In this document: positions 3,885-36,211 of the stretch, piece by piece
Numbering within the stretch: the first letter of the stretch is position 1
Layout of the letters: every line of letters begins with the position of its first letter
Assembly (NCBI RefSeq): GCF_900115205.1
Contig: NZ_FOYQ01000001.1
Span: forward strand, 585,240-649,239
Length of the DNA stretch: 64,000 nt
Direction: 5' to 3'
Source of the DNA: Robiginitalea myxolifaciens
GTDB lineage: Bacteria; Bacteroidota; Bacteroidia; Flavobacteriales; Flavobacteriaceae
The notes under the pieces: generated by a model
Databases searched by the model: none
Told to the model about the DNA's origin: nothing
What the model saw: the letters and a program-made list of their open reading frames with translations, nothing else
Made by a program: the position numbers and the translations under genes

Positions 3885-3992
3885 GTTTTACTGCATATAT
3901 TCATCAGCTGCCCCGGGCATTCATAAATAGAGCCGGGAATCAGCATGGTAAACGGTTACGAGAAAGTTGCAGGAATGCCTGTAAAGGCGGGT

Positions 3993-4128
3993 GTTATCTG
4001 CCCTGAGCTAGTAAATTCCCGCCGGGAACTGCATGGCAACAGGATAGAATGTAGCACCTTCTTGGCCGGGACGGCGCAAGGGTTGCTAAGGCTTCACCGG
4101 GTCTATTCCCTCCACCTTTCTCGATAAC
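3993..4128 (-). promoter_or_regulatory. SAM-I (S-box) riboswitch controlling metH1-metH-metF
   Basis: The minus strand shows the S-box core: P1 GTTATC (4128-4123) pairs with GATAAC (3998-3993). Between them lie GAGAAAGGTGGAGGGA, then GACCCGGTGAAGCC and TAGCAACC, and later AAGGTGCTACATTC, which are the conserved SAM-I segments in the right order. No strong terminator follows, so control is probably by start-site access or another mechanism. A second copy with nearly the same core precedes the metX-thrA fusion. Confidence 0.95.
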
Positions 4129-4162
4129 TGTATCACATTGTAGATGAACTGAGGACAAAGAA

Positions 4163-5355: not shown

Positions 5356-5964
5356 TTAGACTTTGGAATTTGTTGGCTGGAATTTGCTTTTGCTTTGCAA
5401 AAGCTTCCGGGTAGCCCTGTTCATTAGTTTTACTTTGGTTTCAAAATCGGCCCTCAGGGTATCGCGGTAATCATTGAGGTAGGTAACCATTTCGCTCAAA
5501 CCCTCGGGAAGGACTTCTTCGAGTAATTGTCTCAGGCGTTTGGCGGTCGTAGGTGACTGCCCGTTGGTACTGATAGCGATTTTTACATGTCCCTTGTTTA
5601 CAATTCCTCCCATATAGAAGTCGCATAGTGGCGGGTTATCGGCTACGTTGACCAGTATCTGTCGCTTCCGGCATTCCCGGTAAACCCAGGCGTTAACCTC
5701 GGGGCGGTCCGTAGTTGCGATGACCATATGCCGGCCATCTAAGTGCCAGGTGGCCACTTTGGCATGGATCAACTCTGCTCCATAGCGCTCGGCCAGTTCC
5801 CGCGTGCGATTTCGAAATAGCGGAGCAACCAGGCTCACCCGGGCATCCGGACTGGATTTGGTCAGGAAATGCAGCTTTTCTTCAGCAACATTCCCACCTC
5901 CGACAATCAGGATATCGAGAACACTGCTTTTGAGAAAAATGGGATATAAGGTATTGCGTTGCAT
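5356..5964 (-). CDS. Precorrin-2 dehydrogenase / sirohydrochlorin ferrochelatase (CysG N-domain)
   Basis: 202-residue stand-alone equivalent of the N-terminal part of CysG (Met8p/SirC family). It oxidises precorrin-2 with NAD+ and probably inserts Fe2+ to make siroheme. The N-terminal Rossmann segment reads LDILIVGGGNVAEEK, followed by ATTDRPEVNAWVYREC and NVADNPPLCDFYMGG, all characteristic of the family. The preceding gene supplies the methyltransferase half, so the two genes replace a fused CysG. It lies 10 bases after cobA and 44 before the ferredoxin reductase. Siroheme is the cofactor of the sulfite reductase encoded two genes upstream. Whether this protein also performs the chelatase step cannot be read directly. 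Confidence 0.9.
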   Translation of the reverse strand: MQRNTLYPIFLKSSVLDILIVGGGNVAEEKLHFLTKSSPDARVSLVAPLFRNRTRELAERYGAELIHAKVATWHLDGRHMVIATTDRPEVNAWVYRECRKRQILVNVADNPPLCDFYMGGIVNKGHVKIAISTNGQSPTTAKRLRQLLEEVLPEGLSEMVTYLNDYRDTLRADFETKVKLMNRATRKLLQSKSKFQPTNSKV

Positions 5965-5974
5965 AACTGTTCGA

Positions 5975-6742
5975 TTAAATCTGTACGGGTTGCGGTACTC
6001 TAGCTAACTCCCGGGCGTATTCCGGCAACCCATACCGTACAACTTCCCCGATAACAATGACAGCTGGGTTGCCCAACCCCTGCTCAGCTACTTTGGCAGC
6101 GATGTCTGTTACCGTTCCGAATGCCCTGCGGGCCCTTTTGGTTGTTCCTTCCTGTAGTACGGCTACAGGCATGGCCGACTTTCCAGCTGCCTGGAAACAG
6201 GCCATAATCTTTTGCAGTTTGGACATGCCCATCAAAATCACCACGGTTGCGCTGGATTGCGCAGCCAGAGCCACGTCGCGACTCAATTTGTGTTCCTTGG
6301 TGGTGCCAGTTACCACCCAAAAACTCTCACTGATTCCTCTTTGGGTCAGGGGAATATTTTCACTGGCCGGCACGGCAAGACTCGAGCTTATCCCGGGGAT
6401 TACACGCACTTCCATACCCGCGGCAGCGGCCAACACCATTTCCTCTCCCCCGCGTCCAAATACAAAGGGATCTCCCCCCTTAAGACGTACCACATGCTTT
6501 CCCTGGGCTCCGCGTTGCAAAATGAGATCGTTGATCTGCTCCTGGAGGTAGGAGGCACATCCTTTGCGCTTCCCCACGTAAATGTGTTCGGCCTGGGGGG
6601 CATACTGCAATAATTGGTCACTGGCCAGCGCATCATAGAGCACGACATCGGCTTCCCCCAGCAGGCGAACGCCTTTGAGCGTAATCAATTCGGGATCCCC
6701 CGGTCCGGCCCCGATAAGGCTTAAAATTCCCGGCTTATGCAT
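5975..6742 (-). CDS. cobA: Uroporphyrinogen-III C-methyltransferase
   Basis: 255-residue SUMT. It transfers two methyl groups from SAM to uroporphyrinogen III to give precorrin-2, the branch point to siroheme. Family motifs are VGAGPGDPELITLKG in its local form (IGAGPGDPELITLKG, about 10-24), VVRLKGGDPFVFGRGGEE (about 83-100) and the VIPGISSSLAVPA segment. The start overlaps the end of the sulfite reductase by eight bases and the next gene follows after 10 bases, so the three are co-transcribed. The length is that of a single SUMT domain with no uroporphyrinogen synthase fusion. Because it consumes SAM, it links the siroheme supply to the same pool the two riboswitches sense. Confidence 0.95.
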   Translation of the reverse strand: MHKPGILSLIGAGPGDPELITLKGVRLLGEADVVLYDALASDQLLQYAPQAEHIYVGKRKGCASYLQEQINDLILQRGAQGKHVVRLKGGDPFVFGRGGEEMVLAAAAGMEVRVIPGISSSLAVPASENIPLTQRGISESFWVVTGTTKEHKLSRDVALAAQSSATVVILMGMSKLQKIMACFQAAGKSAMPVAVLQEGTTKRARRAFGTVTDIAAKVAEQGLGNPAVIVIGEVVRYGLPEYARELARVPQPVQI

Positions 6743-8861
6743 GACTCAATTGCTTTTCGCGAAATAATTCCGCGCGTTCGATAAAATTTCCAGCCTGATT
6801 CCGGTACCGTCGGGCAAATTCTGAATCCGGTGCGGCCTGATTCATGGCGAGCACCTCCTCCTTTAAGCTCGTTATTCCAAAGTCAGGGAGGTAATTCGCC
6901 AAATGGGTATCGAATAATTCGAGAATTCCAGAATGGGTGTTGGTATTAACCTCCTCCGCGGTTAGCAAGGCTTTGGCCGTATTGATCTGGGCGCTGTAGG
7001 CATAGTAAATCGCCGCAGCGTACCGTTCCTCGGCAAGTGCCTTATCGGCTGCTTCCAACTTTTCCTTGCCTTCCAGCATCAGAGTGGCCACTAAATCAAT
7101 GATGGCCCCAGCGCACTCCCCGACCCCAATGGCTTTCTCATAGCGAGTCGTACTTCCCCAATCGATAAAATCAGCATCTCCAAGATTGGTGACATCGGTA
7201 AGCGGACGCAAGAACTCATAAAAATACTGTTGCCCTTGCTCCGCATAATACGCATCGTACCGTTTTCCCCCTCCATTTGCCAGATAATCCTCAAGGATCA
7301 ATCGAAGGGCCTGAGGGCCTCGTTTTGAAGGGATTTTAACCACTTTATCGGCAAAACGGCCATTGCCTTCCCCGGCGTTTCCACCCCCAAGCAATACCTG
7401 GAGGGCAGGGGCCACGCGCTTATCCGGAGTACGTACGGACATCCCCTGAAACCCAATATGGGCGATTGTGTGTTGACCGCAGGCATTCATACAGCCGCTG
7501 ATCTTGATTACCAGATCGGGAGCGGCCAGTAAAAGGGGATATTCTTCAGCAATGATACGCTCCAGTTCCGCGGCGATGCCGGTACTACTGGCTATCCCGA
7601 GGTTACAGGTATCGGTACCCGGGCAGGCCGTGATGTCGGCCGCCGAATTATACCCGGGATCGGCCAGGCCAATGCGTTGCAATGCAGCATAGACCGCGGG
7701 TATCCATTCCTCCCGGATAAATGGGATCAGGATATTCTGTCTCAGGCTAAGGCGAACTTCTCCCGCGCCATATGTTTCGATGATATCGGATAGTTGCCGC
7801 GCCTGATCCGTGGTAAAGTTTCCTAGAAAAACCCGGATTCCTACTGCCTTGAATCCCGGTTGTTTTTGCGTTATTACATTGGTACTTTGCCACAAATCAT
7901 ACGCCTGTGCGGCATCCGTTTCCTGTAACTGCAGTTTTACCGCTTTCAATTGGCTTTCGAGGTCTTCTGGAGCACTAGTAACCGGTTGCGTAGCGGGATA
8001 AGACTCATGGGGAATTTCAAAAATGGGATTGGGAAGGGACGGAGCCACCTTGGCTAGTTCCTCCCGGAATGCTTCCACCCCCAGATCCCGAACCAAATAC
8101 TTGAGTCGGGCTTTTGCGCGACTTTTGCGCTCGCCAAAGCGATCAAACACGCGTACAACTGCTTCCATCAGGGGAATAATTCGGTTTTCCGGTAGGAAAC
8201 TGTACAACAAATCGGCATGTCGGGGTTGGGCTCCCAGTCCGCCACCAATCATGACCTGGAAGCCGCGTACCCCAGCCTGAAGCTTTGCAATAAAACCCAG
8301 GTCATGCATAAACGACAAACCGGTATCGGAGCGACCGGCTGAAAAACTCACTTTGAATTTTCGCCCCATTTCCTGTCCGATGGGATTTCGCAGGAAATAC
8401 TCAAAAACGGCCTGGGCGTATGGACTTACGTCGAAGGGCTCCTCCGGGTCAATCCCCGCTGTTTCACTGGCCGTTACGTTGCGGACCGTATTGCCACAGG
8501 CTTCACGCAGGGTAACTTCATCGCGTTCCAGCTCGGCCCAAAGTTCGGGGGTGCGATCCAGATCAACATAGTGGATTTGTATGTCCTGCCGGGTAGTGAT
8601 ATGTAATGTACCCGAGGAATAGGTATCGCTTACCTCGGCAATACGACGCAATTGACGGGCACTTACCTTTCCATAGGGCAGTTTTATGCGAATCATTTGC
8701 ACCCCGGCCTGTCGCTGGCCGTAGACTCCACGAGCCAAACGCAGGCTTCGAAACTTTTCTTCGTCTAACGCGCCATTCTTAAACTGGTGAATGCGAGCTT
8801 CGAGCTCCAGAATATCCTGCTCCACCACCGGGTTCTCCAACTCCGTTCTAAAACTCTTCAT
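6735..8861 (-). CDS. sir: Ferredoxin-type sulfite (nitrite) reductase with C-terminal HEPN-like domain
   Basis: 708-residue protein. Residues 1-560 are a siroheme/[4Fe-4S] reductase with two ferredoxin-like and two siroheme domains; the cluster ligands are Cys413 and Cys419 (C-x5-C in TACPGTDTCN) and Cys457 and Cys461 (C-x3-C in SGCMNACGQH). It should carry out the six-electron reduction of sulfite to sulfide. Residues about 570-708 are an extra helical domain resembling HEPN (segment AAIYYAYSAQINTAKALL and a conserved helix ending in LF near 650); this extension is seen in flavobacterial homologues but its role is unknown. A nitrite reductase is the alternative, but cysH upstream and siroheme and methionine genes around it favour sulfite. 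A candidate operator lies 10-26 bases before the ATG. Confidence 0.9.
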   Translation of the reverse strand: MKSFRTELENPVVEQDILELEARIHQFKNGALDEEKFRSLRLARGVYGQRQAGVQMIRIKLPYGKVSARQLRRIAEVSDTYSSGTLHITTRQDIQIHYVDLDRTPELWAELERDEVTLREACGNTVRNVTASETAGIDPEEPFDVSPYAQAVFEYFLRNPIGQEMGRKFKVSFSAGRSDTGLSFMHDLGFIAKLQAGVRGFQVMIGGGLGAQPRHADLLYSFLPENRIIPLMEAVVRVFDRFGERKSRAKARLKYLVRDLGVEAFREELAKVAPSLPNPIFEIPHESYPATQPVTSAPEDLESQLKAVKLQLQETDAAQAYDLWQSTNVITQKQPGFKAVGIRVFLGNFTTDQARQLSDIIETYGAGEVRLSLRQNILIPFIREEWIPAVYAALQRIGLADPGYNSAADITACPGTDTCNLGIASSTGIAAELERIIAEEYPLLLAAPDLVIKISGCMNACGQHTIAHIGFQGMSVRTPDKRVAPALQVLLGGGNAGEGNGRFADKVVKIPSKRGPQALRLILEDYLANGGGKRYDAYYAEQGQQYFYEFLRPLTDVTNLGDADFIDWGSTTRYEKAIGVGECAGAIIDLVATLMLEGKEKLEAADKALAEERYAAAIYYAYSAQINTAKALLTAEEVNTNTHSGILELFDTHLANYLPDFGITSLKEEVLAMNQAAPDSEFARRYRNQAGNFIERAELFREKQLSHA

Positions 8862-8870
8862 TATATTATT

Positions 8871-8887
8871 CCTATAGATTAACTAGA
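8871..8887. promoter_or_regulatory. Candidate Rrf2 operator, copy A (before sir)
   Basis: CCTATAGATTAACTAGA, a CTA-N9-TAG dyad in the 75-base gap between cysH and sir. It matches copies B (9575) and C (9655) at most positions. The function as an operator is inferred from repetition and position near the Rrf2 gene. Confidence 0.5.
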
Positions 8888-8936
8888 TATATTTACAGCA
8901 AATGCTGTCTACCTACTTTGAAGGTTGTACTAATTC

Positions 8937-9554
8937 CTAGGTGTGCAAGCCGCACTCCCGGTTTTCCAGGACTTTGGTAGGATCGAAATAACGATGTTCG
9001 TTAGGGAGGTTCCGGGCCTCGAGATAGGCATCGAGTTGGGTATCACTCCAATAATAGAAAGGACTTACCTTCAGGACACCGTCTTTACTGAGACTGAGGA
9101 TATCCAGGGTATCCCGGTGCGCTGTTTGCCCGCGGCGCAGGTTCGTAAACCAGAGGTCGGGTTCAAATTCCCGCATCGCACGCTGAAAGGGTTCCAGCTT
9201 TACCTGCCGGGTAAACTCAGCATGTCGGGGATCGTCTATCCCGGGGATTCCCATAACCGCATCACGATGGGCTGCTGTTTGCTTTGGAACGTAGAGTCGG
9301 ATATCCAACCCCAGGCGATAGGTCAGGTCCTCTGCATGCGCGTAGGTTTGCGGGGTGTTGTATCCCGTATCGCACCAGATTACCGGAACCGTGCGATCAA
9401 TATCGGTTACGGCGTGGAGGATGGCTACCTCGTAAGGCCTGAAATTCGTTGTGAGTACAGGTCGTTTAGCCCGCTCCAGGGCCCAGGCGATTATTTCTTC
9501 AGGGGGAATTCCTCGTAATTGCTGATTAAGCTGGTCAACTTGTTTCTGGGTCAT
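8937..9554 (-). CDS. cysH: Phosphoadenosine phosphosulfate (PAPS) reductase
   Basis: 205-residue PP-loop family reductase that converts PAPS to sulfite with thioredoxin as electron donor. It has the substrate loop (TTNFRPYEVAILHAV), VIWCDTGYNTPQTYAH, the Arg-rich NLRRGQTAHRD segment and the C-terminal catalytic ECGLH at the very end. Only two cysteines are present, so the CC...CxxC iron-sulfur ligands of APS reductases are absent, which points to a PAPS enzyme that needs an APS kinase elsewhere. In many flavobacteria cysD and cysN follow; here the next gene is sir after 75 bases. A clear promoter with an overlapping dyad lies upstream, so cysH starts the sulfite operon. Confidence 0.9.
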   Translation of the reverse strand: MTQKQVDQLNQQLRGIPPEEIIAWALERAKRPVLTTNFRPYEVAILHAVTDIDRTVPVIWCDTGYNTPQTYAHAEDLTYRLGLDIRLYVPKQTAAHRDAVMGIPGIDDPRHAEFTRQVKLEPFQRAMREFEPDLWFTNLRRGQTAHRDTLDILSLSKDGVLKVSPFYYWSDTQLDAYLEARNLPNEHRYFDPTKVLENRECGLHT

Positions 9555-9574
9555 AATTCAGTATTTCCTTTTAT

Positions 9575-9591
9575 CCTATCGTTTTACTAGG
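9575..9591. promoter_or_regulatory. Candidate Rrf2 operator, copy B, at the cysH start site
   Basis: CCTATCGTTTTACTAGG, the most symmetric copy (CCTA-N9-TAGG). It begins about six bases downstream of the cysH -7 box, so it would cover the transcription start and could block polymerase. This is inferred from position and repetition. Confidence 0.55.
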
Positions 9592-9596
9592 TTATT

Positions 9597-9604
9597 CAAA
9601 GATA
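9597..9604 (-). promoter_or_regulatory. cysH promoter -7 box
   Basis: Minus strand TATCTTTG is an exact match to the Bacteroidetes -7 consensus TAnnTTTG, about 45 bases before the cysH ATG. No clear -33 TTG at the best spacing was found; a CAATT-TTC-AATTG dyad occupies the spacer (9609-9621). Confidence 0.6.
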
Positions 9605-9654
9605 AACGCAATTTTCAATTGTAAAAGCCGAAACGGCAATAAATATCAGTTTAC

Positions 9655-9670
9655 CCTATAGTTTTAATAG
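9655..9670. promoter_or_regulatory. Candidate Rrf2 operator, copy C (upstream of the cysH promoter)
   Basis: CCTATAGTTTTAATAG, 13 of 16 identical to copy B, about 50 bases upstream of the cysH -7 box and 56 bases after the rrf2 stop. Two sites flanking a promoter suggest cooperative binding, but this is inference. Confidence 0.45.
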
Positions 9671-9725
9671 ATTTTTAAAATATCCCGGGTTTTACTGCGG
9701 AAATTTTAGGAGAACCTTGGGATTT

Positions 9726-10133
9726 TTAGAGGATATCAGCGAGGCTGTGACTGCGATATACGTCCAGGGCACTGTCCCGGACCCGCAACATCAAGCGATG
9801 TACGGAACACTTGTCTTCATCCGGGCAGTCGTCGCAGGCTTCGTAAAAATTAAGGCTGACGCAGGGAACCATGGCAATGGGTCCTTCCAGCACCCGCATG
9901 ACAGCGGTCATTGGGATATCCGCCGGATCCTTAATCAGGTAGTAGCCTCCCCCCTTCCCTTTGCGGGATCCCAGAAAGCCGTTTTTACGCAAGGTGAGTA
10001 AGATACTCTCCAGGAATTTTTGAGAGATCTGCTCCTGCTCTGCTATCTCAGCGATTTGCACGGGTTGCCTGTCCTCGCGGTTTGCGAGGTAAACCAGGGC
10101 CTTCAATCCGTACTTCGTCTTTTTGGATAGCAT
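9726..10133 (-). CDS. Rrf2-family transcriptional regulator, probable sulfur regulator
   Basis: 135-residue winged-helix protein of the Rrf2 (IscR/CymR/NsrR) family. The helix-turn-helix lies at about 25-60 (IAEIAEQEQISQKFLESIL, then the wing SRKGKGGGYYL). Four cysteines are clustered at 91, 100, 103 and 109 with a His at 112, so an Fe-S cluster or a metal could be bound, although the spacing differs from that of E. coli IscR. It lies between metZ (26 bases upstream) and cysH, and dyads flank the cysH and sir promoters. Control of sulfate/sulfite assimilation is inferred from this context; CymR-like binding to a cysteine-synthesis enzyme, or Fe-S sensing, are alternatives. Confidence 0.88.
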   Translation of the reverse strand: MLSKKTKYGLKALVYLANREDRQPVQIAEIAEQEQISQKFLESILLTLRKNGFLGSRKGKGGGYYLIKDPADIPMTAVMRVLEGPIAMVPCVSLNFYEACDDCPDEDKCSVHRLMLRVRDSALDVYRSHSLADIL

Positions 10134-14860: not shown

Positions 14861-15005
14861 GTTATCTGCCCCGAACAGCTCATTGCTGTCTGCGGCCGCT
14901 CTGACAAACCGCAACAAACGGGATAGAATGTAGCACCTTCTCCGCACAGGGGCGAAGGGTTGCTAAGGCTTCAAAGGGTCTATTCCCTCCACCTTTCTCG
15001 ATAAC
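14861..15005 (-). promoter_or_regulatory. SAM-I (S-box) riboswitch controlling metX-thrA
   Basis: Minus strand: P1 GTTATC (15005-15000) pairs with GATAAC (14866-14861). The core GAGAAAGGTGGAGGGA, GCCTTAGCAACC and AAGGTGCTACATTC is identical or nearly identical to the copy at 3993-4128, while P3/P4 arms differ in sequence. This is a clear SAM-I aptamer. Confidence 0.95.
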
Positions 15006-15031
15006 CGATCAATAAAACGTTGAACTTGGGT

Positions 15032-16361: not shown

Positions 16362-16433
16362 GATTGCACGGGTTTCCCGGCAAACTGCTTTAGCATTTTT
16401 CGGGTCGCGGATCGGATCCCGGAGGTTGCAATC
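16362..16433 (-). promoter_or_regulatory. Structured metK leader RNA, possible riboswitch
   Basis: On the minus strand GATTGCA (16433-16427) pairs perfectly with TGCAATC (16368-16362) and closes a 72-base multi-hairpin fold. Inside are a G/C hairpin (about 16401-16421, CGGG with CCCG), a small hairpin TGCT-AA-AGCA (16395-16386) and CGGG-AAA-CCCG (16379-16369). It lies 25 bases before the ATG. It matches no SAM riboswitch class I can recognise. The fold is from hand pairing only. Confidence 0.45.
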
Positions 16434-16436
16434 AGT

Positions 16437-16471
16437 CAAATCTATCCTCAAATATGACAGCGGCAAAGGTA
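16437..16471 (-). promoter_or_regulatory. Two candidate -7 boxes for metK
   Basis: TAGATTTG (16444-16437) and TACCTTTG (16471-16464) on the minus strand both fit TAnnTTTG. Use of either would place the 72-base structured leader at the 5' end of the metK message. Confidence 0.45.
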
Positions 16472-35333: not shown

Positions 35334-35377
35334 GATTTCTGAATTGTGCAATTTGAGTTATGTAATCTATCGTTTAA

Positions 35378-36211
35378 TTAGTTTCCGCTAATCGTGTCTT
35401 TGGCCTGCTCGGTAGCCTTTCGACGTTCTTCTTCTTTTTGTTTCCGGCGGGCTTCCCGCTCTTCGAGCAACTTCTGGCGGCGCGCTTCGTATGCTTTCTT
35501 TCGCTCCTCCCTCAGACGGACCTGCTCGGCCCGGTAGTCTTCCGCTTCCTTGGCTCGTGTCGCTTCGGCTTCCTTGGCGCGCTGTTGACGCTCCAACAAT
35601 GCCTCGCTGGGTTGGTCCACTACCTCCTCGTCTTCGGCCTCGAATTGCTCCAGGCGATCCCGACGGGATTTCTTCGGGGCACTCACCTTGCGGGTTCTGG
35701 CTATTTGCCTGAGGACCAGCTCACTGATGTCGTGCCTTTTTTCGGAGTACAACATTACAACATCCGCCGATTTATCAAAAATAAAATCATACCTTTTATT
35801 GGCACCGATTTTCTGAACTTCGCTGAAGACCTGGTCCTGTATGGGTTGAATCAGGCGTTGCTTCTGCAATACCAAATCCCCCTGGGGACCAAAACGGTCT
35901 TGCTGGTAATCCAGCAATTCCTTTTGAAGGATTCCGATTTCCTCTTCCCGTTCCGCGACCAACTCATCCGTTAACAGGACGCGCTCTGCATCCAGAGCTT
36001 CTTGTTGCTGGTCTATGGCTCGCTGGCGGCTCTCTATCTCAGTTTTCCACTGATTTACTTTTGTTTCGAGCTGCTCACTTGCCTCGCGGTACTCCTCAAC
36101 ATTCTCGAGGATATATTCCATGTCCACATAACCGATCCTAACGCCGCGCTGAGCCTGTAAGCCGCACAACAGCCCGATCAGGGCCAGGAAACTAATTATC
36201 CTTGTCTTCAT
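35378..36211 (-). CDS. OmpH/Skp-family periplasmic protein (copy 2, long coiled coil)
   Basis: 277 residues with a signal peptide (about 1-20, ending GLQAQ). It has the OmpH core (GVRIGYVDMEYILENV at the mature N-terminus, YDFIFDKSADVVMLYSEK near 140) and then a long highly charged stretch from about 180 to the end rich in Arg, Glu, Lys and Ala. This tail is roughly 100 residues longer than in copy 1 and reads as a continuous helix. Both OmpH genes follow bamA, which fits a chaperone pair for barrel assembly. The tail could contact peptidoglycan or the partner copy; that is not shown by the sequence. A promoter lies 34 bases upstream. Confidence 0.88.
   Translation of the reverse strand: MKTRIISFLALIGLLCGLQAQRGVRIGYVDMEYILENVEEYREASEQLETKVNQWKTEIESRQRAIDQQQEALDAERVLLTDELVAEREEEIGILQKELLDYQQDRFGPQGDLVLQKQRLIQPIQDQVFSEVQKIGANKRYDFIFDKSADVVMLYSEKRHDISELVLRQIARTRKVSAPKKSRRDRLEQFEAEDEEVVDQPSEALLERQQRAKEAEATRAKEAEDYRAEQVRLREERKKAYEARRQKLLEEREARRKQKEEERRKATEQAKDTISGN

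Follow-up and report, generated by a model that had tools for sequence, protein, structure and literature searches.

Organization of the locus

The window analysed in this study is a stretch of 64,000 nt from Robiginitalea myxolifaciens (assembly GCF_900115205.1, contig NZ_FOYQ01000001.1, positions 585,240-649,239), in which a metZ-like gene, rrf2, dyad C, a promoter, dyad B, cysH, dyad A, sir and the siroheme genes follow one another in this order, all on the minus strand (Table 1). The three dyads are copies of a 15-letter mirror-image DNA element that precedes cysH and sir, and the nearest relatives are Robiginitalea species. Considering their contiguity on the minus strand, the siroheme genes downstream of sir likely form one transcription unit with it. 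Among relatives, the operon often consists of rrf2, a DUF2061 gene, cysH, cysD, cysN and sir; the gene for this small DUF2061 membrane protein is regularly the first in the putatively Rrf2-controlled operon of many of them (for example loci L286-L288 and L304).

The window also contains two SAM riboswitches and one SAM-II riboswitch, which precede genes of the methionine branch, namely a metH-type gene, a metX-aspartokinase-homoserine dehydrogenase fusion and metK. Neither cysH nor sir was found to have a SAM or SAM-II riboswitch, and one locus combines a methionine branch under riboswitches with a sulfate branch under the candidate Rrf2 operator.

Table 1. Coordinates of the features of the window that are discussed in the text
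Feature	Position	Strand	Description
SAM riboswitches (two) and SAM-II riboswitch (one)	3991-4130, 14896-15007, 16380-16455	-	precede methionine-branch genes
Siroheme genes	5356..6742	-	uroporphyrinogen-III methyltransferase 5975-6742; CysG N-terminal-type 5356-5964; NCBIfam
sir	6735..8861	-	nitrite/sulfite reductase family, C-terminal HEPN domain, 708 aa; PF01077, PF03460, PF05168
Operator A (candidate)	8871..8887	-	core TCTAGTTAATCTATAGG; matrix score 22.8, held-out 23.2
cysH	8937..9554	-	phosphoadenylyl-sulfate reductase family, 205 aa; PF01507; NF002537 below its cut-off
Operator B (candidate)	9575..9591	-	core CCTAGTAAAACGATAGG; matrix score 33.8, held-out 29.3
-7 box of cysH promoter	9597..9604	-	TATCTTTG, TAnnTTTG sigma-A type; conserved in relatives
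Operator C (candidate)	9655..9671	-	core TCTATTAAAACTATAGG; matrix score 30.7, held-out 22.2
rrf2	9726..10133	-	Rrf2-family regulator, 135 aa
Fourth CTA-N9-TAG dyad	35367-35381		CTATCGTTTAATTAG; between two ompH/Skp-like genes

Occurrence of the dyad in the window and in the genome

A first-pass annotation, made from the sequence alone, had reported a dyad shared by three copies at 8871, 9575 and 9655, and these positions proved to be exact: in plus-strand reading the copies occupy 8871-8886, 9575-9590 and 9655-9670, the genes being on the minus strand. The pattern common to the copies, CCTATNGNTTNANTAG, was found four times in the window when up to one mismatch was permitted, against 0.18 expected, and none of 100 shuffles reached four. 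The bare CTA-N9-TAG was rejected as the motif, its count in the window (nine seen, 7.6 expected) being near chance; the signal resides in the extended consensus, since CTA-N9-TAG alone is uninformative. Across the whole 3.2-Mb genome, the core as first read gave four exact matches, all of them in the window (the three dyads and one chance occurrence), the extended 20-mer with no mismatches recovered B and C only, and matches with three mismatches were no commoner than in controls. The dyads are genuine and well beyond chance expectation.

The fourth match qualifies the earlier statement that the window holds no further copy. This dyad scores about -2.5 to -3 with the matrix described below, whereas A, B and C reach 22.8-33.8, and no comparable site was seen in the corresponding region of nine congeners. 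With its background score and lack of conservation in congeners it was rejected as a functional site and attributed to chance, and the statement holds for functional copies.

Conservation of the sites in relatives

For footprinting, 104 distinct rrf2 loci were sampled, and a motif, WAnYCTAnTAAAnCnATAGGRTAAWW in cysH-strand reading, was derived from 120 sites in the 700 bp after rrf2. A scan of these loci over 1.17 Mb gave 224 matches against two in shuffled sequence, and a site occurred within 700 bp upstream of cysH in all 92 loci where rrf2 and cysH lie near each other, with none in the reversed-sequence control, although many of the conserved sites share ancestry and the counts are not phylogenetically independent. 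Because this matrix was trained on the very sites that it scored, a held-out matrix was built from 35 sites, using only loci with 60-75% Rrf2 identity; in the window, A, B and C were again the sole strong matches, the next scoring 3.9. The A site of this genome lies outside the 700-bp training region, and the training set contained no A-type sites. Of 83 relatives, 41 have such a site ahead of sir, placed directly before it even where the longer cysH-cysD-cysN-sir operon is present. In the footprinting of cysH and sir upstream regions that had been proposed as a check, the dyads are conserved, at sir less widely than at cysH.

Nearly all copies are oriented as the gene, and the reversed orientation seen in L213-L216 fits a site for a dimer. 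In distant orders of the phylum (L286-L288), rrf2 is also followed by a dyad and the same genes, so that the association predates the family. Relatives that lack C (L072, L077, L146, L151 and other loci of the Algibacter/Tamlana/Hyunsoonleella type) carry another conserved block, ATTCCATTATTCTAAAAAGTTGTTAA, about 35-50 nt upstream of the -7 box of the cysH operon, where another regulator may bind in place of C.

Geometry of the cysH promoter

The sigma-A box TAnnTTTG of Flavobacterium psychrophilum occupies -12 to -5 (PMC9723704), and the same placement here gives a predicted transcription start at 9592, so that B would span +2 to +18. The first reading, that copy B begins about six bases after an exact -7 box, is borne out, as the CTA of B starts 6 nt past TATCTTTG; 73 of the 92 loci share this gap of 6 nt. 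A position over +2 to +18 of the predicted start fits repression, which on this geometry is likely at B. The placement of copy A at 10-26 bases before the sir ATG, which lies at 8861, was also confirmed. A -7 box before A was looked for and none was recognised, and A may act as a roadblock. In several relatives terminator-like hairpins occur just upstream of A, with no promoter box recognisable between the hairpin and sir.

C is centred near -71 relative to the predicted start. Among 49 loci, 40 have C 74 nt away from the -7 box and six have it 73 or 75 nt away, the exceptions being 63 nt in two Cellulophaga (one helical turn less) and 105 nt in one locus (three turns more); where B has slipped to a gap of 2, 4, 5 or 12 nt, the distance of C to the box is unchanged. 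The 44-nt spacer has a mean pairwise identity of 47%, and taken with the fixed distance this indicates a tighter constraint on the length of the spacer than on its sequence. A TTG near -33 is present in 11 of 47 promoters bearing C and in 28 of 41 lacking it (p 3e-5, with kinship among loci ignored). These features hint that C may contact RNA polymerase, perhaps as an activator site, while B would serve repression.

The probable reader of the dyads

An rrf2 ortholog is present in 134 of 201 Flavobacteriaceae genomes sampled at approximately one per genus, cysH in 126, and the two together in 123 (Fisher p 7e-37, with kinship among the genomes ignored). In ten genomes rrf2 has moved away (L071, L197, L211-L218), to 2.6, 5, 6.7 or 180 kb off, or to another contig or a distant place, and in each of them a site is still found upstream of cysH. 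On the other hand, no site of at least 12 bits was found near cysH in the 14 genomes that have cysH and lack an rrf2 ortholog (12 of one genus including G156, along with G099 and G181), a set that amounts to about three independent lineages, includes two genomes that are 73-80% complete, and was searched over 1.5 kb either side of cysH in the 11 congeners of G156. G156 and G240 retain an Rrf2 paralog of 30-32% identity and have no sites, so the paralog is insufficient to keep them; the R. myxolifaciens genome likewise encodes an Rrf2 paralog elsewhere (28% identity). Joint retention and joint absence provide the strongest evidence, comparative in nature, that the dyad is recognised by the product of the adjacent rrf2, and this neighbouring protein is very probably the regulator of cysH and sir through their dyads. 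Autoregulation of rrf2 was also considered and rejected, as the separated sites follow cysH and the window shows no site before rrf2.

The first-pass annotation had proposed that the Rrf2 protein represses both cysH and sir. The link of the protein to the dyads and their targets is upheld by the 92 cysH loci, the ten genomes with displaced rrf2 and the absence of sites in all 14 genomes without it. The further proposal of plain repression of both genes is less secure: B has the geometry for it, C at about -71, in promoters poor in a -33 element, hints at activation, and no -7 box was recognised at A.

Extent of the regulon

With a strict pattern, 145 matches were counted over the 201 genomes; its reversed version, used as control, yielded about 46 (summed over control columns). 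Fifty-nine of the matches fall no more than 6 kb downstream of rrf2, with 58 of them on the same strand and most of them 52-267 nt past rrf2, and the clustered excess is linked to cysH. Of the remoter matches in genomes with rrf2, the 36 that were retrieved lie mostly inside genes, and none recurs except at the displaced cysH operon of G083. A wider regulon was rejected, the far strict matches being mostly coding and without a recurrent gene family, and no isc or suf gene was recognised as a target among the fetched sites. The genome-wide search suggested earlier, run in R. myxolifaciens with the extended 20-mer as a pattern, returned exact matches at the cys locus only. From these searches the regulon appears to be narrow, comprising the cysH operon and sir. 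Eleven genomes carry rrf2 without cysH, and rrf2 must therefore have other targets somewhere.

In one locus with rrf2 and no cysH (L222, genome G016), a dyad at 1149-1174 follows rrf2 and sits upstream of a luciferase-like (alkanesulfonate-type) monooxygenase gene and metH, which suggests that organosulfur use is under the same regulator. In a distant order (L296), the gene for a 46%-identical Rrf2 homolog is directly followed by a similar dyad before an AhpC-type peroxiredoxin gene, and this homolog may be a sister regulator recruited to peroxide defence.

Sequence and structural features of the probable regulator

The rrf2 product matches PF02082 at 126 bits (cut-off 30, E 1e-36) and TIGR00738 at 117 bits (cut-off 73.3). 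Its structural model (pLDDT 87) matches 2y75, 4hf0 and 5n07, a predicted fold like that of CymR, IscR and NsrR, and the wing of its wHTH has the form GxxGGY with G59, G62, G63 and Y64 invariant. Four cysteines arranged as C91-X8-C100-X2-C103-X5-C109 are invariant in all 101 orthologs, and H112, which aligns with the ligand histidine of IscR, is His in 74% and Asn in 23% of orthologs. The cluster ligands of IscR are three cysteines and one histidine, and the spacing C103-X5-C109-X2-H112 equals that of IscR C98, C104 and H107. From the conserved residues a metal centre is likely, with an Fe-S cluster as the best guess, although the four cysteines could instead bind zinc. Membership of the CymR and IscR equivalogs was rejected, at 82.3 bits (cut-off 195) and 76.9 bits (cut-off 207.55) respectively.

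As in CymR of Bacillus and Staphylococcus, an Rrf2-family protein here appears from comparative genomics to control genes of cysteine and sulfur assimilation, and the nearest solved fold to the model is that of CymR (2y75, TM about 0.8, 32% identity). However, B. subtilis CymR has no cysteines in the aligned region, and the presence of four invariant ones here makes Fe-S sensing likely. CymR carries no Fe-S cluster and has CysK as its partner (PMC9338935), and its regulon is global, whereas the one described here is confined to one locus. With IscR of E. coli the protein shares the Rrf2 wHTH and the spacing of the last cysteine pair and histidine, but the apparent targets are sulfate-reduction genes rather than those of Fe-S assembly, there is an extra cysteine, and the histidine is not invariant. 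The type 2 site of IscR, xxWWWWCCxYAxxxxxxxTRxGGWWWWxx (PMC4055776), resembles the present dyad in its 17-bp core, C..G ends and A/T-rich flanks, but the inner bases differ (CTA-N9-TAG here, CCxYA-N7-TRxGG there), the inner YA being unmatched.

RisR of Myxococcus xanthus and RirA of rhizobia are Fe-S-binding repressors of the Rrf2 family; they work at promoters, and iron or oxidative stress makes them let go (PMC9973013, PMC6748827), although their targets are isc/suf and iron uptake genes and the fourth invariant cysteine distinguishes the present protein. In Rhodobacter, IscR recognises the Iron-Rhodo-box, a short palindrome, with repression by the cluster-bound protein and activation of some genes by the apo-form; one of these sites lies inside an operon, as A does here (PMC4618611), but the targets are in iron uptake and the protein has a single cysteine. 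The R. myxolifaciens protein can be regarded as a member of the superfamily that is CymR-like in its targets and probably IscR/RirA/RisR-like in its sensing.

A model for regulation and its alternatives

We consider it quite probable that the Rrf2 protein and the dyad YCTAnTAAAnCnATAGR control sulfate reduction, with repression at B, local control at A, tuning at C and an Fe-S signal. This model builds on the computed sites, their conservation, the link to rrf2, the narrow regulon, the geometry and the invariant cysteines, from which we infer binding, dimerisation, the sign of regulation, the cluster, the signal and the roles of A and C. The protein, probably as a dimer, would bind the 17-bp pseudo-palindrome and thereby control the cysH operon and sir. 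At B it would block transcription start or promoter clearance at the sigma-A promoter of cysH, comparable to RisR, where the holo-Rrf2 repressor sits at -10/+1 (PMC9973013). At A it would control sir locally, through a roadblock or an unrecognised promoter. C, locked on one helical face, would provide a second contact that most likely aids RNA polymerase or stabilises the complex, so that output would be tuned instead of being just shut down. What is sensed is most likely the condition of a metal centre, probably Fe-S, on the four invariant cysteines: with the centre intact, sulfate reduction would be held down, and once a lack of sulfur or iron had cost the protein its cluster, repression would be relieved or Rrf2 would rearrange from B to C.

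How B and C work together can be read in more than one way. Activation from C in one state (class-I-like, from -71) and repression from B in another state or at higher occupancy is a serious candidate that we hold at somewhat below even chances. The locked distance of C to the box despite the divergent spacer, the shifting of B relative to the box while C stays in place, the rarity of TTG near -33 in promoters bearing C, and the activation of suf by IscR in E. coli (PMC4055776, PMC9973013) are all in its favour; however, the TTG content is confounded by phylogeny and composition, the length constraint equally fits looping or a nucleoprotein complex, and a large clade keeps B without C. Pure repression, in which B and C would be cooperating operators bridged via looping or protein contacts, finds support in their near-identity and in the spacing between C and B, which is precisely 80 bp in 35 out of 50 loci, but 80 bp corresponds to 7.6 turns and is out of phase, and where the gap between box and B differs, it is to the box rather than to B that C keeps its spacing; we regard it as rather doubtful.

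Two further explanations dispense with the neighbouring protein as reader of a DNA site at these promoters. A different transcription factor, such as the other Rrf2/IscR-like protein of the genome, might bind the dyads, the adjacency of rrf2 being coincidental and proving little by itself; with sites absent from G156 and G240, which have only the distant paralog, and retained where rrf2 has moved, this is improbable. The dyad might also be an RNA element, a leader hairpin acting after transcription, given that B lies inside the predicted cysH 5' leader, A just before the sir start codon, and nearly all copies follow the orientation of the gene. This was rejected on the position of C, which, lying some 70 nt before the predicted start, would be untranscribed from that promoter, and on the orientation flips; moreover, the outer stem is very short and no Rfam family was found at the dyads, leaving it with hardly any likelihood.

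Starting from the model of control by the neighbouring Rrf2 protein, a bolder conjecture may be entertained, although we think it rather doubtful: that an undescribed Bacteroidota Rrf2 clade (C-X8-C-X2-C-X5-C) is a two-way switch, activating from a helix-phased position at -71 (or -60) and repressing over +1, with Fe-S status metering the supply of sulfide for Fe-S clusters.

Implications

Flavobacteriaceae are major marine polymer degraders, and in the open-access PMC literature we found no earlier mention of this regulator or its operator from Bacteroidota and no account of the control of sulfate assimilation in Flavobacteriaceae. The present analysis offers a candidate regulator, an operator consensus, a predicted promoter geometry and a target set, which together form a testable control circuit for sulfur assimilation. 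It suggests that the task performed in Firmicutes by a cluster-free Rrf2 protein with CysK is in Bacteroidota given to an Rrf2 protein resembling an Fe-S sensor, with SAM riboswitches taking charge of the methionine branch at this locus. If the two-way switch were true, Fe-S status would directly meter the pathway from which Fe-S clusters obtain their sulfide.
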